A stretch of 23,038 nt of DNA from positions 1 through 23,038 of IMG/VR virus record IMGVR_UViG_3300036861_000254. One strand, 5' to 3'. This DNA is from a virus. Every line of letters starts with the position of its first letter. The stretch's first letter is position 1. Below, in pieces: positions 14,814 through 23,038 of the stretch. The notes under the pieces are model-generated. The model was not told the origin of the DNA, made no database searches, and was given only the letters and a program-made list of their open reading frames with translations. The position numbers and the translations under genes are program-made.

Positions 14814-15212
14814 TTAAGGTGACGTCCCTTCCGTGACTGCTCCATTTAGGCGGAAGTTTACACTTGCGAGAACAGCATCGTCGTAAGGGTAGGACAAGTT
14901 TTGCTGCAGCACCACTGCCGTGCCTACTGTGAACTTCGGCTTTCCAGCCGCAGTGCCTTGCGGGAACCAACCTAACGATCCAACCGAGCCCACCCTAGTG
15001 GCCTGCCGAATCGTAGACGAAGTGTCATCATCGAGAATCTCTGTAGCTGCGGAACGCTCAGCGAAACCCGTGATGAACTCCTTGTCCGTCGATCCATATG
15101 AAGTAACCTCGATCTCATCTCCAGACTGGGACACTTCGAAAGTGCGACCCTGACCAGAAATGTCAATCGTGCCGAACCGAACTACAAGCGCTTTCCCGGT
15201 ATACTTGCTCAG
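14814..15212 (-). CDS. Major tail tube protein, probable CTG start
   Basis: 132 residues if translation starts at CTG 15212. The only ATG/GTG/TTG candidate in frame is GTG 15134, which has no ribosome binding site and would cut off the first beta-strands. CTG 15212 has AGGAGGTGA with 9 nt between AGGAGG and the codon, and the added 26 residues (SKYTGKALVVRFGTIDISGQ...) match the start of typical tail tube proteins. The rest (RTFEVSQSGDEIEVTSYGST, EFITGFAERSAATEILDD, YPYDDAVLASVNFRLNGAVTEG) has the expected two-sheet tube-protein pattern. It forms the tail shaft by stacking hexameric rings. It lies between tail terminator and chaperone, as in other siphophages. Product assignment is secure; start choice is inferred. 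Confidence 0.8.
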   Translation of the reverse strand: MSKYTGKALVVRFGTIDISGQGRTFEVSQSGDEIEVTSYGSTDKEFITGFAERSAATEILDDDTSSTIRQATRVGSVGSLGWFPQGTAAGKPKFTVGTAVVLQQNLSYPYDDAVLASVNFRLNGAVTEGTSP

Positions 15213-15228: not shown

Positions 15229-15654
15229 TCATCTAGTCACTGCCACGCTATATGTGCTAGGCACTTGCACAAGCCCAGTATCCTGATCTGGTAATTCGAG
15301 CTCATCGCCGGTGCGTATCATACGGAGAAGTGAGTAGGGCGTCAAGGACGCATTCCAATCTCCGATCTCTAACGCCTCCTGAATGGCATTGAAAATATCC
15401 CATGCCTCATCACCATTACGTCCCCAAGCTGTGATCTGTACTTCGGGTATCTCAATCGATCGGTAATCCAAGTACGTACCTTCGGGTCTAACACCCGATA
15501 TACGCTGATAGACGATGTAAGGCGCTTCCGTGCCGGGGGGCACTCTCCCCACCCGATAGACCTTCGTGATGCTGTTCTGATCTTGTCCCACTAGAGCTAT
15601 GATAGTCGGATCACTACGGAGTATGTCTCTGACGGCACTGACGACGACTTTCAC
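15229..15654 (-). CDS. Tail terminator / tail completion protein
   Basis: 141 residues; GTG at 15654 overlaps the neck protein stop as GTGA, with TTGGAG 5 nt upstream. Pattern: N-terminal helix (AVRDILRSDPTIIALVG), strand (KVYRVGRVPPGTEAPYIVYQRI), strand with PEVQITAWGRNGDEAWDIFNAIQEAL and a C-terminal strand (LVQVPSTYSVAVTR). This alpha/beta pattern with the 'APYIVYQRISG' and 'QI.AWG.....A..I...I..AL' elements is that of the DUF3168-like tail terminator family. Such proteins form a hexameric ring capping the finished tail tube and joining it to the neck. It lies directly before the tail tube gene, the usual place. Confidence 0.85.
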   Translation of the reverse strand: MKVVVSAVRDILRSDPTIIALVGQDQNSITKVYRVGRVPPGTEAPYIVYQRISGVRPEGTYLDYRSIEIPEVQITAWGRNGDEAWDIFNAIQEALEIGDWNASLTPYSLLRMIRTGDELELPDQDTGLVQVPSTYSVAVTR

Positions 15655-16088
15655 AGTCGCTCCAATGCAGTCGCTAGCAGTCGTACATTGGAAACGAGGT
15701 ATTCCCGGCCTTTCGCTGCAGCTGGTCTCATAAAGGGTTCTGCTGCCATTTTGGAGGTACCGTACTCTACAAACGCTGCATATTCCTTCGTATTTTTTCC
15801 CTCAATGTTACCCGCCGTAGAAGCTGCAACAACTACCCAGTCATAGATTCCCAACTTCGTTGTTGAGATACCTGATTCAAGGTTACCCGATTCGACTGGG
15901 ACCTTCTCTTTAGCCACGGACTCGACACGTTGAGCAGTGGCATAGAGAATGTACCCGAGTCGACGGCTCGTTGCGCCCCCAATAAGTCGTAGTTTAGCTA
16001 TAGCAGCGGGTAATCCCAAGACCTGTACGCCCACAAATCCGCCTGCGCGTGCGGGAGTAACAACAGCGGCTCTGCTCAACCTTGCCAT
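15651..16088 (-). CDS. HK97 gp10-like neck protein
   Basis: 145 residues, ATG at 16088 in a TAATG overlap. Hallmarks of the HK97-gp10 family are visible: an N-terminal helix pair (GLPAAIAKLRLIGGATSRRLGYILYATAQRVESVAKEKVPVESGNLESGI), where 'A...K.PV.SGNL..SI' is typical, a strand (YDWVVVAAST) and the signature YAAFVEYGTSKMAAEPFMRPA at about residues 105-125. The final helix is KGREYLVSNVRLLATALERL. The family forms part of the neck/tail completion complex in siphophages. There is no Shine-Dalgarno site; translation likely depends on coupling to the head closure gene. Confidence 0.9.
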   Translation of the reverse strand: MARLSRAAVVTPARAGGFVGVQVLGLPAAIAKLRLIGGATSRRLGYILYATAQRVESVAKEKVPVESGNLESGISTTKLGIYDWVVVAASTAGNIEGKNTKEYAAFVEYGTSKMAAEPFMRPAAAKGREYLVSNVRLLATALERL

Positions 16089-16444
16089 TAAGGAGTTATC
16101 CGTTCTGCTAAGACTTTCTTTGCGGTTATCAACGTAGAATCAGTATCTTCTACCGCTCGCACTTGATAAGTTGAGGATAACGGCGAGACGACTTGATCAC
16201 CCACCTTGATGTCTTGGCCCCAAGGAAATGTCAGGGTCCAAGCAGCAATGTTCCGGAATTGATCGGCGACCGACCGGAAAGTCCCAAAGCCAGGCTCAAA
16301 ATGGCAAGGTACGTCGGTGGCAATTACTACAGGAGTCAACTCTACATCCCCCAAAAATGATACCCTCTTGATAGTCGCTAGAGACCCCATGAACTTCTCC
16401 TGTTCGGCCCTCAACAAGTCTAACTCCGTCTGAGTGATGCCCAT
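16088..16444 (-). CDS. Head closure / head-tail joining protein
   Basis: 118 residues, ATG at 16444 in a TAATG overlap. An N-terminal helix (TQTELDLLRAEQEKFMGS) leads into a small beta-barrel: ATIKRVSFLG, TDVPCHFEPG, AAWTLTFPWGQDIKVGDQVVSP, TYQVRAVEDTDS, ITAKKVLAERI. The 'W.l.fpwg.dik.gD.v....tyqV' pattern is that of the SPP1 gp16/HK97 gp7-like stopper proteins which plug the portal channel after packaging. The gene order adaptor, closure, neck, terminator agrees. No ribosome binding site; the bases before ATG read CTCCTA, which cannot pair with 16S rRNA. Confidence 0.75.
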   Translation of the reverse strand: MGITQTELDLLRAEQEKFMGSLATIKRVSFLGDVELTPVVIATDVPCHFEPGFGTFRSVADQFRNIAAWTLTFPWGQDIKVGDQVVSPLSSTYQVRAVEDTDSTLITAKKVLAERITP

Positions 16445-16764
16445 TAGGAGAATTCCGAAGCCTCGACCACAGGTGTGACTTGCATCAATATCGATTCGAT
16501 CTCATGAGCCGCCCTATCCTGCCACTGCTTGGCCATCTCAATGCAATGCTCAAACACCTGCTCTCGCGAGAAGAATCGACCATCGACGCTCGCAGAGTAC
16601 CAATCACTAACAGTGGCTGCCTTCACTAACCAAATCTCAGCAGCAGCAGCCTCGATATCCCCCTCGTAATGCTCGATCCGCTCCAAAAGCAAGTCATCCG
16701 TAGAAAATACAATCCGATTGGGATCGCTGATGAACTGACGAAGTAGGTCAACGTCTGAGGTCAT
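16444..16764 (-). CDS. Head-tail adaptor (connector) protein
   Basis: 106 residues, ATG at 16764, 8 nt after the methyltransferase stop. Mainly helical: DVDLLRQFISDPNRIVFSTDD, LLLERIEHYEGDIEAAAAEIWLVKAAT, then SREQVFEHCIEMAKQWQDRAAHEIES. The pattern 'short helix, ...LL...E...GD...AAAEI...KAA..S.WYS...DG..FSR....' is that of the HK97 gp6/SPP1 gp15-like adaptor family, which docks as a ring under the portal. The portal gene is not in the window. No Shine-Dalgarno sequence is seen before ATG. Its separation from the capsid gene by about 4 kb of accessory genes is unusual. Confidence 0.8.
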   Translation of the reverse strand: MTSDVDLLRQFISDPNRIVFSTDDLLLERIEHYEGDIEAAAAEIWLVKAATVSDWYSASVDGRFFSREQVFEHCIEMAKQWQDRAAHEIESILMQVTPVVEASEFS

Positions 16765-16772
16765 GAGCTAAA

Positions 16773-18548
16773 TTATACACCCACCCTCTCGCTCTGCTCC
16801 AGAAGACCCCGGACACCACTCCAACAAGCCTTCGTAGCCAAGATTGTGTCGTCAGGTCGGCCAGTCATGGTGAGCAGTTCTACCTCATACCCTCTTCCTT
16901 TGAAGTCTTCAGGTGAGAACCAGTGCTTGTGGGCCATTTGATGCGGGTAGTCTTCCTTTTCCCCCACACCAACTATGTCTCGGTTTGGTGTGGTGATAAC
17001 TACCGCCCCTGTAATGTGCTCACACTGTTTGAGAAGCATCCAGGGTTCCTCGACGTGTTCCAAGGTCTGTTGGATCACGATATATTCAAAACCCTCTGGC
17101 ACTTCATAATCGTTGAGATCAGTCCCATCGATTAATAGATCGACTGGTACGTAGGTGCCCCACCACCTATATTCACGAAGAAACCTGTCGAGGTCGCATA
17201 GCCCTGCTCCCAAATCCAGTATACGGTCTCCTGAGCGGAGACCCACACGCTCAAGGGCCTTAAAGATAGCGGCGTATTCCGGGACTCGAGCATCGTAATC
17301 TCCGTATTCCTTAGCCTCCTGTTCCATCGCCTCTCTAGCCACCTTGAGGCGTTGAGAGATACTAAGTTGAGGGCGGGTCGAAGTCCCCAGCGCCGCGCCC
17401 GAACGCCGGGGGAGGGACCCCTCGATCACCGCCCCCAACAATGCTTCCCATTTATCGGCGATAACGGGAACCGAGCAGTTCTCAATAACCCACTGACGAG
17501 CAACCTCCCCCTCATTGTGCGTAGCCATCCGATAAACACATTCGAGACGATAAACCATATCTTCAATGTCAGGGATGAAGTGGTAGCCGTAATGGGGAGC
17601 CATCACTCGAACAGCAGGCTCTACGACGTAACCGTACTTTGTGATTTCGGGCATTGAGGTATAGTTCCCAGTGATCACTGGTATCCCACAAGCCTGAGCT
17701 TCGACAATGGGAATCCCAAACCCCTCGCCAGCAGAGACGTTCATAAGCACGTCGAATGAGTTGTAAATCGTCGCCATCAGATCGGCGGCTGCGGGAACCA
17801 CCTTCGTATCGTACTGATTGGTGGAAAAGATCTTTCCCTTCAGCCCCAAACGATCCACCAATTGACGCATATCCCAACCACCCATTTTAGGCGTAGGTTC
17901 GGTGTGGAGGTAGATTCTCACTTTCACATCGGGTTGAGATTCCATCCACTGTTTCACAGCACGGAGCTGTAGTGGAAATTGCTTGCGGTCCCCCTTGTTA
18001 GCCATCACCATACCGATGATGTAGGCATCCTCATCAATACCCAGCTTTTGACGACATTCGGTCTTGTCCATAGGGCGAAAGGCGTCGGTGTCTACAGTGT
18101 GGTAAATAGTCGCTGTAGGTTTTACGCCCACGTCCCACATCTGTTTAGCGCCAAATTGACTCATAGCGATGGGGAAATCAACGTGCTTCAATCGATCAAA
18201 GGTCGGCCCGCCAATACCCTCATGATCGATGGGCGTCCACGCTATCCAAGGTACTGTCAATTCTTTCCAGCGATGGGGGTCCAATACAAATAGGTCCATC
18301 AATGTGATTACAGTTTCTGCCTCGGATCGAGCACTGTGAGCCTTGATTACATCGTTTCCCCAATCCTCGAAATCAGTATTTGGCAATACGAGGTAATCAT
18401 CGTACTCGACAGAGCCACCACTTAGTCCATAGAAAGCGAAGCACACAGGCTCATGTCCTCTATTGCGAAGCTCTTTAAGTATAAGGCGGGTTTGCTGACC
18501 ATACCCAGTTCCTGCCCAAGGCGCGTTACTCATCCATAATAGGCGCAT
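16773..18548 (-). CDS. Bifunctional GT4-like glycosyltransferase / class I SAM methyltransferase
   Basis: 591 residues, ATG at 18548 with AGGAG 6 nt upstream. Residues 1-380 are a GT-B fold glycosyltransferase: N-terminal loop NAPWAGTGYGQQTR (8-21), IYHTVDTDAFRP (148-159), and the donor-site EX7E motif in GEGFGIPIVE (E275, E283) followed by ACGIPVI. A linker (about 380-420) leads to a methyltransferase: motif I ILDLGAG (443-449), acidic D470, the IQQTLEHVEEPW motif (492-503), TTPNRD (519-524) and HWFSPEDF (542-549). The likely job is sugar transfer followed by methylation of the glycan or of the same acceptor. Substrates are unknown. The setting between the capsid and connector genes suggests a virion protein as target; cell-surface modification is the alternative. 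Confidence 0.85.
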   Translation of the reverse strand: MRLLWMSNAPWAGTGYGQQTRLILKELRNRGHEPVCFAFYGLSGGSVEYDDYLVLPNTDFEDWGNDVIKAHSARSEAETVITLMDLFVLDPHRWKELTVPWIAWTPIDHEGIGGPTFDRLKHVDFPIAMSQFGAKQMWDVGVKPTATIYHTVDTDAFRPMDKTECRQKLGIDEDAYIIGMVMANKGDRKQFPLQLRAVKQWMESQPDVKVRIYLHTEPTPKMGGWDMRQLVDRLGLKGKIFSTNQYDTKVVPAAADLMATIYNSFDVLMNVSAGEGFGIPIVEAQACGIPVITGNYTSMPEITKYGYVVEPAVRVMAPHYGYHFIPDIEDMVYRLECVYRMATHNEGEVARQWVIENCSVPVIADKWEALLGAVIEGSLPRRSGAALGTSTRPQLSISQRLKVAREAMEQEAKEYGDYDARVPEYAAIFKALERVGLRSGDRILDLGAGLCDLDRFLREYRWWGTYVPVDLLIDGTDLNDYEVPEGFEYIVIQQTLEHVEEPWMLLKQCEHITGAVVITTPNRDIVGVGEKEDYPHQMAHKHWFSPEDFKGRGYEVELLTMTGRPDDTILATKACWSGVRGLLEQSERVGV

Positions 18549-18557
18549 GGTGATCTC

Positions 18558-20060
18558 CTATGCTGCTACTACCTCCGAAGCGGACCCCAAGACCCGTCCG
18601 GCTGTAGACTTGGTAAAGGACAGCGAGGTCTCATCACCGTACTGATGTGCAGTGACAACCAACCCAAAGTTTGATGGTGTATCGTTATTCCCATCCTGCA
18701 TCGCCCCCGGTATGTTAATGCCTGTAGAAGACCCAGCACCGGGAACGAAACCAGGCCATGGAGCGCTCGACCCCATATTGACATTGACTCCCCAACCTGC
18801 AAGGAACAGATTTCGGTGGGTACCTCCTGAGGGTATAAGGGTAAGAGTCGTAGATATAGCAGTTCCCTGAGCATTGACTCCTGCAGGTGTAGATGTATTA
18901 ACTCCACTAGTCTGAACGACGATAATGTCGCAAGAGTCCTGTACAACGGCATGCTGTATCTGTAGCGAAGTACCCGACGGTGTAGCACTGATCCCCCAAT
19001 AATGAACGAGTGCAAAGTCCCCACTAGTCTGCGTAGACCCAATCTTCGTCCAGGTAAGCCCGAGGTTGCCCGCCCCACCAATCGCAGTTGCCCCCCCAGA
19101 CCCACCAGACTTTTGGGACAATATCCATAGGTCAACTCGCGTATTTGCGGTGGGGGTTGTTACAGAGCTGAATGAATAGTTTGTATTGTTTGCGATGCTG
19201 TTTGCGATTTTAAGCACTTTGAAATTCCGCTCATCCAATGGGTTAGCTGCAGGAGCCGAAGATGAGCGCACCTCCATCATGGCTATCAAGGAGTCAGAAT
19301 TCTCACTCCAAGTCATAGGCTCAGAAAGAAGCTGACCCGCCCGCCAAGCTACAAAGAGGAGAGCATTAGAGGAAGCAGTCTGGAATCGATCGACCTGGGT
19401 GGTGTTGGTATATGTATTGTCCCCATTGCCATTATTGAACCGCGTCCCAAATACAAATGAGGCGTTATTCGTTGCATCTGAGAACTTCCACCCATAGGTT
19501 TGCCCAACTGTAGTAGTATTACCGTCCTTCCGCCAGAACCACTCTAAGTACCCAACTGGGTTGACCGTATCCGCATTATCAACTGACCACATCTGATAAG
19601 AAGCTGTCGATACTGTCTGACTGAAAACGAAGGTCATACTTCCACTAGTTGGAGCAGAAGCATAGCCCCACACCAACCAATCGTTCTTTGGGTTTGCTGG
19701 GTCACCCGTTCGGGAGTCAATATTCCAAGTGACTCCACACCCCGTCGCACTCGACATAGAGGTTGCTCCAGAAGCCCCGAGGGCGAACATATTGATAAAG
19801 CAAACTTTCCCAGCCGGAGGGGTAAAAACAGTAGTGGTTGACCAGGTAGCCGAACCTACAGCATCGTTTCCCTCGTGAGCTACCAATGTAGGATTAGATA
19901 CGGCGACGCCTCCACCACCCCCTCCTCCCCCCGAGAACGCCCATCTAGACCACATACGAGACTTTGGACGAGGCAATCGCTGACGAGTGACTTGCACCAT
20001 GTGCATAGCCATCACGCAGGCTAATGCAATTGGGAATAGGTAACGACTAAACTTCCTCAC
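18558..20060 (-). CDS. Two-domain beta-rich structural protein with hydrophobic N terminus and Gly8 linker
   Basis: 500 residues from GTG 20060 (GAGG 6 nt upstream); an in-frame ATG at 20090 would overlap the preceding gene. Residues 1-6 are basic, 7-24 hydrophobic (LFPIALACVMAMHMV), 25-43 basic (RQRLPRPKSRMWSRW), 44-51 Gly8. Then come two related beta-sandwich domains (about 52-262 and 268-500) with the shared outline 'strand, TPPAGK/TPTANTR-V, aromatic strand, G-rich loop, W-T/N-I, hydrophobic strand, TSGSMTF/PSGTSLQ'. Domain 2 has LGLTWTKIGSTQTSGDFALVHYWG and VQTSGVNTSTPAG, typical of a recurring phage/surface beta domain. Both are rich in Ser, Thr and Asn. It lies between capsid genes and the glycosyltransferase, so it may be a capsid fibre or decoration protein and a glycan acceptor. 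Confidence 0.6.
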   Translation of the reverse strand: MRKFSRYLFPIALACVMAMHMVQVTRQRLPRPKSRMWSRWAFSGGGGGGGGVAVSNPTLVAHEGNDAVGSATWSTTTVFTPPAGKVCFINMFALGASGATSMSSATGCGVTWNIDSRTGDPANPKNDWLVWGYASAPTSGSMTFVFSQTVSTASYQMWSVDNADTVNPVGYLEWFWRKDGNTTTVGQTYGWKFSDATNNASFVFGTRFNNGNGDNTYTNTTQVDRFQTASSNALLFVAWRAGQLLSEPMTWSENSDSLIAMMEVRSSSAPAANPLDERNFKVLKIANSIANNTNYSFSSVTTPTANTRVDLWILSQKSGGSGGATAIGGAGNLGLTWTKIGSTQTSGDFALVHYWGISATPSGTSLQIQHAVVQDSCDIIVVQTSGVNTSTPAGVNAQGTAISTTLTLIPSGGTHRNLFLAGWGVNVNMGSSAPWPGFVPGAGSSTGINIPGAMQDGNNDTPSNFGLVVTAHQYGDETSLSFTKSTAGRVLGSASEVVAA

Positions 20061-20062
20061 GA

Positions 20063-20347
20063 CTAACCTCGATCCGCAAGAGCGACCCAAATGATGCCAT
20101 CAGTTCCACCGTCTCGCACATACCGAAAATCGATAATGTCCTGCTCCTGCAGCTCCCAAACGTCCCCCACACTGCCAATGAAACCAGCGGTTCCAGCTAC
20201 TGGGGTACCTCCATCCATACGGAACCGAATCGACTGACCCTGGACTTGAAATACAGCATAACCGTAGTTTGCGGCCCAAGCAGGATCTATTGATCCGACC
20301 GCAGTGCCCACCGTTATAGCAGAGCCCTTAGCGAAGTTTTGAGCCAT
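20063..20347 (-). CDS. Unknown small beta-rich head-region protein
   Basis: 94 residues; ATG at 20347 directly follows the upstream TAA, with CGGAG 7 nt upstream. The sequence alternates strands and turns: AITVGTAVGSIDPAWAANYGYAVFQVQGQSIRFRMDGGTPVAGTAGFIGSV-type core (shown here in pieces: YAVFQVQGQSIRFRMDGG, VGDVWELQEQ, IIDFRYVRDGGTDGIIWVAL). Confidence 0.55.
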   Translation of the reverse strand: MAQNFAKGSAITVGTAVGSIDPAWAANYGYAVFQVQGQSIRFRMDGGTPVAGTAGFIGSVGDVWELQEQDIIDFRYVRDGGTDGIIWVALADRG

Positions 20348-20647
20348 TTACTTACTCCGAGCTCTGCGCTTTCCTGTACCTGGCTCAAACTCATCCGACG
20401 GTGCCATACCTTCGGTCTGCTCTGCAAGTGACTCAGTTTCCTCAACCTCTAAAAGGTCCTTAGCAGCACCCTTACCAGCAATACGCTCTACGACCTCATT
20501 GAACTCGATGGCGTCCCCTCGATCCTTACCGAGTTCATCTGCGATCTGATCAACGAGGTCCCAACGATCCGAGGCTACACAGAAGTGTAGCTTCGTAACG
20601 AGTTCATCCTTCTTCCATTTCTTGGCTTCAGACGGAATGACTTCCAC
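20348..20647 (-). CDS. Unknown acidic helical protein
   Basis: 99 residues, GTG at 20647 behind AAGGAGG, a strong site only 4 nt from the start. Two helices (KWKKDELVTKLHFCVASDRW, LVDQIADELGKD) precede an acidic linker (LLEVEETESLAEQTEG) and a basic C terminus (GTGKRRARSK). I recognise no family. It is the first gene after the capsid gene and its hairpin, and its stop abuts the next start. Position suggests a head-assembly or capsid-associated protein; the basic tail could touch DNA or acidic virion surfaces, but that is conjecture. Confidence 0.6.
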   Translation of the reverse strand: MEVIPSEAKKWKKDELVTKLHFCVASDRWDLVDQIADELGKDRGDAIEFNEVVERIAGKGAAKDLLEVEETESLAEQTEGMAPSDEFEPGTGKRRARSK

Positions 20648-20716: not shown

Positions 20717-21961
20717 CTATCTCCCTCCCGGCCCGCCGTAAATGACCGATGGGATATCGTAAGAACCGGATGCCTTGACCTGCATGATTATTCCAGCTCC
20801 ACGATGGCGAATCCCTGATCCAACTGCGTGATGGTAGAACGATTCCCTCAACGGATAACGCTCAAACTGCGGAATCAGCTTGAGTCCACGAAGGGCCGCA
20901 TTCTCATGCTCCCTGAAACCGATGGGGTTTCGCTCTGCTCTTACACCGCCAGACACGAACCCGAACAGATAGCCTGCTGGGATCATGTCCTCCTGGATCA
21001 CGTTCCACGGCCCATAAACACCCTGGAAACCGGGGAAGTTATCGATGCCCCCAGCAGCTGCTGGCGCAGTTGCAAGGTCCCCAACCAAAGTGCCACGGAA
21101 TGTGGAATCGTATGCATCCCTTGCTGGAATCCAGTCGTAGCTGTCACCAGACGCCACACGGAAAGCACGGATCCTCTTGATCTCCTGCAGGTTGATAGCC
21201 AGGAGGCAAGTTCCGCCTTCTGTGTAACCATGATGGTACAGCGTCTCCCACATCGCATCCAGGTTCGCCGAGGTCACTGCCGTGTTGGCCGAGACCAAGT
21301 AGTGATCATGTGATGTGGTGAAGGTAAACGATTTCCACTGGGGAGGAGCAGCAGGCAGAGTCTGCACCGTTCCGTTGTAGAACGGGTAGCAGTTTACAGC
21401 CGTACCTGTGTCCTCCATCGTGGCGACCGTCAGCAAGTTGTTGAAAGCTCGATCAAACACCGTCTTGTAAATCAAACGGTTATCTGCATCGAGCGCCGCT
21501 GCATTATTCGCCCTCAGCTGTCTCGAGTCAGCTCGCCCCAAGAAGCGAAACGTGTAACGGAGCCCCAAGTCCATGTACTTCAGGTCGTATCCCATATTCC
21601 AGTACGGAACCGGAGTACGGATACCTTTGGGCTGACCGAACTCATCCGCTTCCTCGAAGTCTGCCGCAGACACCTGAGCGACCCGCTCGAACGGCTCTGC
21701 TACTGGAAACGTCAGCCGTTCGATGAGTGGGGTTCGCTGACTGTTGAAGATTCGAAGCACCTGCTGAAATTCATTGAACAGTTCGTTGATATCCTCACCG
21801 TCCAACGTCTTCAGTGGGATATCAGCGACTTCGTTATAACCGAAGCTTGGTGCGCCACCGGCAATAGGAGCAAGTAGACCGGTTGCGCGATACAACTTCA
21901 AGGCGTTACCCCCATACTTTCTGAGGGCTTCAGCCCAAAAGCGTCTATACTCGTCGCTCAA
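20717..21961 (-). CDS. Major capsid protein (HK97 fold), TTG start
   Basis: 414 residues from TTG 21961, preceded by AGGAGGAGG with 7 nt spacing. A longer in-frame reading to 22015 only overlaps the decoration gene and yields an Arg/Ser-rich start unlike a capsid. The protein begins (M)SDEYRRFWAEALRKYGGN. Features include a PLKTLDGEDINELFNEFQQVL helix, a TFPVAEPFERVAQVSAADFE strand, EDTGTAVNCYPFYNG, CLLAINLQEIKRI, and the C-terminal PLRESFYHHAVGSGIRHRGAG motif typical of capsid proteins encoded beside small scaffold and decoration genes. There is no N-terminal delta domain, agreeing with a separate scaffold gene. About 415 copies-per-shell numbers cannot be read from sequence. Location between decoration and head accessory genes supports the call. 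Confidence 0.85.
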   Translation of the reverse strand: MSDEYRRFWAEALRKYGGNALKLYRATGLLAPIAGGAPSFGYNEVADIPLKTLDGEDINELFNEFQQVLRIFNSQRTPLIERLTFPVAEPFERVAQVSAADFEEADEFGQPKGIRTPVPYWNMGYDLKYMDLGLRYTFRFLGRADSRQLRANNAAALDADNRLIYKTVFDRAFNNLLTVATMEDTGTAVNCYPFYNGTVQTLPAAPPQWKSFTFTTSHDHYLVSANTAVTSANLDAMWETLYHHGYTEGGTCLLAINLQEIKRIRAFRVASGDSYDWIPARDAYDSTFRGTLVGDLATAPAAAGGIDNFPGFQGVYGPWNVIQEDMIPAGYLFGFVSGGVRAERNPIGFREHENAALRGLKLIPQFERYPLRESFYHHAVGSGIRHRGAGIIMQVKASGSYDIPSVIYGGPGGR

Positions 21962-21968
21962 CTGTCCA

Positions 21969-21977
21969 CCTCCTCCT
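21969..21977 (-). promoter_or_regulatory. Ribosome binding site deciding the capsid start
   Basis: AGGAGGAGG overlaps the decoration gene stop codon (21976-21978) and lies 7 nt before TTG 21961. No ATG or GTG in the capsid frame is as well placed. Confidence 0.75.
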
Positions 21978-22308
21978 ACATTCTCACGACTAGACGATCG
22001 CCCTCTACGGTCCAACCGACCTTTGTGGCGTTCGTCGAAGTCAAAGAGACAGTACCGCCTGTACCAGCGTAATAAATTGATCCAGCTGAACCGCCGAATT
22101 CGACAACCTCACCCGCTACTAGAATGCCTACGGGATGTCCTGCAGCCGTTGTACCGGGCAAGACGACGATACCGACAGCACCTGATCCAGCAGCAGTTCC
22201 TGATGGGACAGCTGAACCTCCAGAGTTGATCACAACCCCAAGAACGCCGGTCAGAGCAGTACCAGCCAGGGCGCGCACGACCTGAGTTGCTTTATCGATA
22301 CGCGCCAT
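21976..22308 (-). CDS. Capsid decoration-like protein
   Basis: 110 residues; ATG at 22308 behind AAGGAGGAGGA, directly after the scaffold stop. After a basic helix (MARIDKATQVVRALAGTAL) the protein is almost all Gly/Val/Ala/Thr beta-strand: GVVINSGGSAVPSGTAAG, GIVVLPGTTAAGHPVGILVAG, VVEFGGSAGSIYYAG, TVSLTSTNATKVGWTVEGDRLVVRM. This resembles the small beta-rich DUF2190/head-decoration type proteins encoded between scaffold and capsid genes; the 'AGHPVGIL..GEVVEF' strand pair and C-terminal 'VGW.V..DRLVVR' support this. It would bind the outer capsid at symmetry axes and stabilise it. The functional class is inferred from pattern and position. Confidence 0.7.
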   Translation of the reverse strand: MARIDKATQVVRALAGTALTGVLGVVINSGGSAVPSGTAAGSGAVGIVVLPGTTAAGHPVGILVAGEVVEFGGSAGSIYYAGTGGTVSLTSTNATKVGWTVEGDRLVVRM

Positions 22309-22317
22309 TCCTCCTCC

Positions 22318-23001
22318 TTATTGCTTAGGTATAGGGACTTTGCCCCGCAGTTGAGGGTAGTTTCGGAGGAGTTCCGCTTGCTTCGCAGCATCACTACTAT
22401 CGCCGCCACTAGCACCAGCACCAATGTCTCGGGTGCCCGTAGCCTTAGCAAACAGATAAGGCTTCTGCTTCTTGAACTCGTCAAAGAACGTCTCATCAAG
22501 GCCCTTCACTACACCCTTGTCATCGATACCAACGTCCTTCCAAAGTTCAAGTTTCTGGGCGATCTCGAAAGCATCATCTGGGTACTGGACCTCATGCTTC
22601 ATGCACATGAGTTTAAACTCGGCGAGTAGAAGTCTTTGATTCGCTGTAGAAAGCACAGTCTCAGTGGCTTCCTTAGCCGCCTGCTTCTTAGCTTCCTCTA
22701 GCGCCTTCTCCTGCTCAGACTTCTGACTCTCGAGAGTAGTCTTCTGCTGCTCGATAAACTCCTCCAACTCTTTCTTGCTCTGAAAACCCAACTCAGATGG
22801 ATCGAGCCTACCGCGCTTCGCCTTATCGGTTTCACGAGCGATTAACGCATTGACCTCATCCTGAGTAAAGGTCTTATCGCTCTTTCCATCGTCCGACTTC
22901 TTGCTGGTGTCGGTACCGCCTGACTTATCGGCGTCAGTGCCGCTCCCCTTACCCTTGTCATCTGGCGGGGGATCGCCTTCGCCTTCCGCGCCCTGGATCA
23001 T
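22318..23001 (-). CDS. Capsid scaffold protein
   Basis: 227 residues from ATG 23001, with an AGG about 9 nt upstream. The frame is open without a stop to the right window edge, so a start outside the window (adding at least RSGSSGAYRYLP) is possible. Residues 1-45 are a disordered Gly/Asp/Lys stretch; 46-60 (KTFTQDEVNALIARETDKAKRG) begins the classic scaffold motif; a coiled coil covers about 72-125 (KKELEEFIEQQKTTLESQK...); the C-terminal part has a helix (FFDEFKKQKPYLFAKA) and a basic end (LRGKVPIPKQ). This matches the DUF4355/GP20-type scaffold. It lies immediately upstream of decoration and capsid genes, as expected; it guides shell assembly and is removed before packaging. Confidence 0.8.
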   Translation of the reverse strand: MIQGAEGEGDPPPDDKGKGSGTDADKSGGTDTSKKSDDGKSDKTFTQDEVNALIARETDKAKRGRLDPSELGFQSKKELEEFIEQQKTTLESQKSEQEKALEEAKKQAAKEATETVLSTANQRLLLAEFKLMCMKHEVQYPDDAFEIAQKLELWKDVGIDDKGVVKGLDETFFDEFKKQKPYLFAKATGTRDIGAGASGGDSSDAAKQAELLRNYPQLRGKVPIPKQ

Positions 23002-23038
23002 AGGTAGGTACCTATACGCACCCGAGCTACCGCTTCTT

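Follow-up and report, generated by a model that had tools for sequence, protein, structure and literature searches.

The window, which is the whole 23,038-nucleotide stretch of IMG/VR virus record IMGVR_UViG_3300036861_000254, encodes a 591-residue protein that joins a GT4-type glycosyltransferase (GT) to a class I methyltransferase (MT). We think that this protein, whose gene is linked to the capsid genes, is likely to glycosylate the virion and to bring its own methyl-capping step with it, a function that is predicted from sequence. The gene (positions 16773–18548) is an uninterrupted frame of 591 codons with an ATG start on the minus strand, a strand that the earlier note on this DNA had left unstated when it gave the same location; the plus strand of this interval is full of stops. 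A Shine-Dalgarno-like AGGAG precedes the gene, and 8 nt separate its stop from the start of the next gene. The EX7E motif (EGFGIPIVE) and the DLGAG motif fall exactly at residues 275–283 and 445–449 of the translation, where the earlier note had placed them. Its description of a single protein composed of a GT-B glycosyltransferase and a class I methyltransferase is borne out by the frame, the motifs, and the Pfam and PHROG matches.

All neighbors of the fusion gene lie on the same strand, and its placement among them resembles that of a gene in an operon. In the order of transcription, genes for a scaffold protein, a 110-aa cement-like protein, the major capsid protein, proteins of 99 and 94 aa, and a Ser/Thr-rich protein of at most 510 aa precede the fusion. 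Genes for a 106-aa connector-like protein, a 118-aa adaptor-like protein, neck1, the tail terminator, and the major tail protein follow it, with the tail chaperone, tape measure, Dit, and further tail genes beyond (Table 1). This arrangement agrees with the setting between capsid and head–tail connector genes that was originally proposed. The capsid protein resembles those of Mycobacterium phage Cuke and Gordonia phage Wojtek at 42 and 40 per cent, respectively, and the cement protein at 35–39 per cent; neither phage has a GT at the corresponding capsid position. Because the capsid and cement proteins are actinophage-like, whereas the connector, adaptor, neck, and tail tube proteins resemble those of other GT-bearing phages, the window looks mosaic, with a capsid of actinophage type. 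The 23-kb record is probably a fragment, and no portal gene was found within it. The start of the Ser/Thr-rich protein is uncertain, an internal ATG at approximately position 19955 being likely. This protein is also Gly-rich, with poly-Gly near its likely N-terminus, and it has no relatives in the phage collection or in a single-protein scan of IMG/VR; a tandem duplication within it was considered and is not supported.

Table 1. Positions of the fusion gene, its parts, and the neighboring genes in the window.
Feature	Positions	Strand	Basis or remark
GT4-methyltransferase fusion, 591 aa (P0001)	16773..18548	-	ORF, Pfam, PHROG, motifs
GT-B / GT4-type glycosyltransferase domain, residues 1-385; EX7E 275-283, R188-K189, GTGYG 13-17	17394..18548	-	Pfam, PHROG_2170, invariant residues, AF2, Foldseek
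Linker between domains, residues 363-392	17371..17460	-	G+C content
Class I SAM methyltransferase domain, residues ~396-591; motif I DLGAG 445-449, then VPVD, TLEHVEEP	16773..17363	-	Methyltransf_23, MetW, profile match
Head scaffolding protein, runs off contig	22318..23037	-	PHROG
Capsid cement / minor capsid-like, 110 aa, 39% to Gordonia phage Wojtek gp13	21976..22308	-	
Major capsid protein (phrog_3990), nearest Gordonia/Mycobacterium phages at ~41%	20717..22015	-	
99-aa protein, no family	20348..20647	-	
94-aa protein between capsid and fusion, no family	20063..20347	-	
Ser/Thr-rich (22%) orphan, up to 510 aa, immediately upstream of fusion	18558..20090	-	
106-aa head-tail connector-like protein	16444..16764	-	relatives between GT and tail genes in other loci
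118-aa adaptor/stopper-like protein	16088..16444	-	
Neck1 / tail completion protein (phrog_5)	15651..16088	-	
Tail terminator	15229..15654	-	
Major tail protein	14814..15134	-	highest Ser+Thr among window proteins checked

By its fold and motifs, the N-terminal half is a GT-B, GT4-type glycosyltransferase with predicted retaining activity. The Pfam family Glycos_transf_1 matches residues 161–306 (E = 3.4e-11; 43.4 bits against a cut-off of 26.4), and the profile of PHROG_2170 ('glycosyltransferase') spans the full GT (residues 2–371; E = 9.8e-34). In an alignment of 27 relatives, E275, E283, R188-K189, G15-Y16-G17, and D108 are invariant. An AF2 model built from this alignment reached approximately 90 pLDDT, and its Foldseek matches are GT-B/GT4 structures (best E = 7.8e-18), headed by the chlorovirus glycosyltransferase B736L (3oy2) and followed by MshA, BshA, and other GT4 enzymes. 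This half thus combines a score above the Pfam cut-off, EX7E with basic phosphate-binding residues, and the GT-B double-Rossmann fold, and structure prediction, a check put forward in the earlier note, supports its active-site fold. The linker that joins it to the second half is the most G+C-rich 90-mer of the window (0.71 against a mean of 0.52, with a standard deviation of 0.05, or approximately 3.8 standard deviations above). The location of this peak at the inter-domain joint is so far a positional coincidence only, which could be the scar of the fusion event.

The GT family is tightly associated with capsid genes. A profile scan of IMG/VR yielded at least 573 confirmed relatives, of which the best 80 were analysed, with their capsid, portal, terminase, connector, neck, tail tube, and tape genes annotated by iterative profiles. 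Five of the capsid seeds (from loci L015, L024, L027, L068, and L069) match PHROG 'major head protein' families, and the L040 seed is without a PHROG match. Among these best 80 of at least 573, the GT starts no more than 2 kb downstream of the capsid gene in 56 of the 59 relatives with a recognizable capsid gene. Were the GT placed at random among the forward genes of these loci, 15 of 59 would be expected, and the highest count reached in 200,000 simulated draws was 30; the draw is approximate because the loci are centered on the GT. When four isolated phages are added to the best 80, a capsid gene lies upstream in 61 of 84 loci and the GT follows within 2 kb in 58 (median gap of 477 nt). The order TerL-portal-MCP-GT-connector-adaptor-neck-tail tube is repeated with different capsid families. 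The window's own fusion starts 2.2 kb after the end of the capsid gene, three genes on, which is outside the 2-kb habit, yet still before the connector gene.

Among GTDB genomes, a capsid gene is found upstream in 22 of the 36 best relatives. The strong GTDB matches (E = 1e-68 to approximately 1e-25) are mostly on short contigs of metagenome-assembled genomes (MAGs) assigned to Chloroflexi, Actinomycetota, Gemmatimonadota, Gammaproteobacteria, Patescibacteria, Planctomycetes, and others, with the hosts uncertain and MAG misbinning possible. A single-protein scan of IMG/VR recovered no close relatives of the whole fusion, no nucleotide match to the window was found in phages, and plasmids gave weak GT4 matches only. 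A homologous protein of approximately 125 aa separates the GT from the capsid gene in 27 IMG/VR and phage loci (e.g. L015:6525-6923, L027:7534-7905, and L068:4113-4526). Those of its members that were compared with PHROG and Pfam belong to no known family, and the protein might be a decoration protein or an acceptor; a profile search found no copy of it in the window.

The linkage with capsid genes could partly reflect shared descent of the module rather than function. An alternative is that the fusion decorates glycans of the host cell surface, as in receptor masking, superinfection exclusion, or serotype conversion, and that its place among virion genes reflects late expression only. Characterized GT4 enzymes do mostly make envelope glycolipids, polysaccharides, and small thiols; the cellular structures that best match the GT half are MshA, BshA, PimA/PimB', and WaaG; and PHROG_2170 is classed under 'moron, auxiliary metabolic gene and host takeover'. 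We nevertheless regard this alternative as unlikely, given that capsid adjacency is kept with different capsid families and on contigs assigned to many phyla. Moreover, serotype-conversion genes usually reside near the integration site, and late expression shortly before lysis would fit modification of the virion better.

Virion glycosylation is also in keeping with the other genes around the GT. The genes in the GT interval of the relatives are, judged by their sequences, a glycan cassette: among 113 ORFs downstream of the GT there are 15 GT2, 9 epimerase/dehydratase, 8 GT4, and 2 UDP-galactopyranose mutase genes, as well as MTs of the Methyltransf_24 (eight), Methyltransf_11 (five), and Methyltransf_23 (four) families, the MT counts overlapping. 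Radical SAM (5 of 113) and B12-binding (4 of 113) domains also occur in this interval between capsid and connector genes. The same evidence bears on the proposal that the fusion glycosylates and methylates phage DNA or nucleotides, producing a hypermodified base that protects against restriction. Phage GTs modify DNA in T4 and probably in Thanatos (PMC12838424), but the neighbors in the relatives are of the polysaccharide type rather than nucleotide enzymes, the linkage is to capsid genes, and no base-hypermodification genes were recognized on the 23-kb fragment. We therefore judge modification of DNA to be very improbable.

A homology search for the same fusion in other phages, likewise suggested in the earlier note, found GT4-MT fusions in 13 of the 80 best IMG/VR relatives (of at least 573). 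Eleven of them carry an FkbM-type MT (L009, L015, L024, L027, L037, L040, L055, L063, L069, L078, and L083, with L055 carrying a second MT), and the other two, L023 and L068, carry an MT of the Methyltransf_23/11 type. An additional GT4-FkbM fusion is found in a Micromonosporaceae MAG, and the protein A0A6J5SUQ0 of BFVD may be another. On the GT tree, whose deep branches have weak support and on which the window's sequence forms a long branch, the fused or single state changes at least eight times. The sister sequences L015 and L023 (88 per cent support) bear different MT families. Given these changes, the fusion to an MT probably arose, or was lost, repeatedly within the GT4 family. L016 was excluded from the count of fusions, as its long N-terminal extension is probably a start-codon artifact, and the 190-aa C-terminus of L012 matches no Pfam family. 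Members of the GT4 family are also found fused to a GT2 domain instead, which is C-terminal in L110:6913-8862 (an Actinomycetota contig) and N-terminal in L086:1463-3913; L113:5504-7399 is a further candidate, with a weak GT2 match.

The MT half of the window's protein is divergent, and its scores barely exceed the Pfam cut-offs. Methyltransf_23 matches residues 427–549 marginally (E = 3.7e-6; 27.2 bits against a cut-off of 27), and MetW scores 21.6 bits against a cut-off of 21. Motif I reads DLGAGLC and is without the third glycine of E/DxGxGxG, and the acidic residue after the second strand (VPVD) and the LEHV motif (TLEHVEEP) are retained. A profile of this half and its kin finds methyltransferase structures (E = 1.5e-15), including a D-glucose O-methyltransferase. 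The domain is also profile-similar (96 per cent probability) to a group of standalone MTs that contains those of phiPsal1 and S-CBS4. On its own, the MT half had no match at E = 0.01 in the phage collection; it likewise recovered no close relatives in a single-protein scan of IMG/VR and none in the first group of loci. In the full-length AF2 model, it was mostly at 30–65 pLDDT. Modeled alone from its own 14-sequence alignment, it reached 73, with the stretch after motif I below 50, and class I methyltransferases match this model in Foldseek (E = 7.7e-5; TM approximately 0.4). Structure prediction is thus compatible with a class I fold, and the fold of the active site, given the low pLDDT after motif I, is only plausible.

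It is conceivable, but rather improbable, that the GT half is active whereas the MT half has degenerated or serves a structural role, or that the MT half methylates not the glycan but a small molecule or the side chain of a protein. The weak family scores, the low model confidence, and the incomplete glycine motif would agree with degeneration; on the other hand, motif I, the acidic residue, and LEHV are all kept. Additionally, fusions to, and neighbors of, other MT families recur among the relatives, which argues that the methylation step is maintained by selection.

Several isolated phages carry a GT of the same PHROG_2170 family as the window: phiPsal1 (gp10), Microcystis phage Mae-JY09, S-CBS4 (gp14), and TJE1. 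The gene separates the capsid from the neck genes in phiPsal1 and the capsid from the connector genes in Mae-JY09, and it is part of the structural region in S-CBS4, whereas in TJE1, unlike in the window, it is upstream of the terminase genes. Where these isolates have an MT, it is encoded by a gene of its own rather than as a fused domain; in phiPsal1 and S-CBS4 it belongs to phrog_32762 and lies beside or within two genes of the GT4, in the structural region. The environmental GT4-FkbM fusions (e.g. L009, L015, L063, and L069) share with the window both the GT family and a C-terminal MT and lie a short way downstream of a capsid gene. However, their MT is of the FkbM type (Methyltransf_21), while the window's Methyltransf_23-type MT is shared by only L023 and L068 of the best 80.

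The more distant precedents combine GTs and MTs in viruses with glycosylated virions. According to two reports, capsid and tail tube proteins are glycosylated in mycobacteriophages, including Che8, Corndog, and Myrna, by phage enzymes (PMC12363180; PMC11256854). Corndog gp35–38 comprise an O-methyltransferase and GTs among structural genes (PMC4351075), and Che8 gp108 (L166:6172-7347), annotated as a glycosyltransferase only, is a fusion of GT2 with a Methyltransf_24/TylF-type MT. Corndog gp35–38 and Che8 gp108–110 are phage sets of GTs and MTs tied to virion modification, as proposed for the window. The Che8 enzymes are of different families, with GT2/GT25-type transferases and a Methyltransf_24/TylF-type MT in contrast to GT4 and Methyltransf_23, and their genes are at the far right end of the genome. 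The parallel with mycobacteriophages drawn in the earlier note holds as a precedent for virion glycosylation but not as a close fit: profile comparison detected no homology of the window's GT to Che8 gp108, no mycobacteriophage is among its matches in the phage collection, and the family occurs in phages of very different hosts. In the algal virus PBCV-1, A064R consists of two GT domains followed by an MT, and this third domain methylates the capsid glycan at O-2 of its terminal rhamnose (PMC9614988). Like the window's protein, it unites viral sugar transferases with a C-terminal MT, and its product is a capsid glycan; it differs in having a GT-A rhamnosyltransferase and a novel GT domain, with no GT4, and in making an N-glycan. 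We infer from these likenesses that the window's fusion may work like Che8 gp108 and A064R.

We propose that the fusion would be expressed late, in a tailed phage with an actinophage-type capsid. With a nucleotide-sugar as donor, the GT4 half would act as a retaining transferase and attach a sugar either directly to a virion protein or to a sugar that such a protein already bears. The C-terminal MT would then O-methylate the transferred sugar or the growing glycan as a cap, and its tethering would keep methylation local to the freshly made product. Since no sugar-nucleotide genes were recognized within the 23-kb fragment, either the host or the missing part of the genome must supply the donor. 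Possible acceptors are the Ser/Thr-rich orphan upstream and the major capsid, cement, or tail tube protein. The orphan and the tail tube protein have the two highest Ser+Thr contents among the window proteins checked, and we treat both as candidates. The capsid protein has no special Ser/Thr tail when compared to those of actinophages without a GT. The virion acceptor, the methylation of the sugar, the order of the steps, and any effect on adsorption, stability, or shielding are predictions of this model. The methylated virion glycan suggested in the earlier note is partly supported overall, and the case for it is strengthened by the capsid-linked GT family, the glycan genes beside it, the repeated fusion to MTs, and the precedents of Che8 and PBCV-1, in which GT-MT fusions occur in viruses that glycosylate their capsids.

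For the family as a whole, we see the evidence as evenly balanced on whether PHROG_2170-type GT4 genes mark a widespread capsid-coupled glycosylation that extends over many phyla beyond actinophages, with methyl capping repeatedly hard-wired by fusion to different MT families. Phage virion glycosylation is reported to have been demonstrated for only a few mycobacteriophages (PMC12363180; PMC11256854). If the proposal is true, glycosylated and methylated phage particles would be common, and the capsid-locked GT family would provide a gene marker that predicts them. This would bear on adsorption, particle stability, and antibody recognition of therapy phages.
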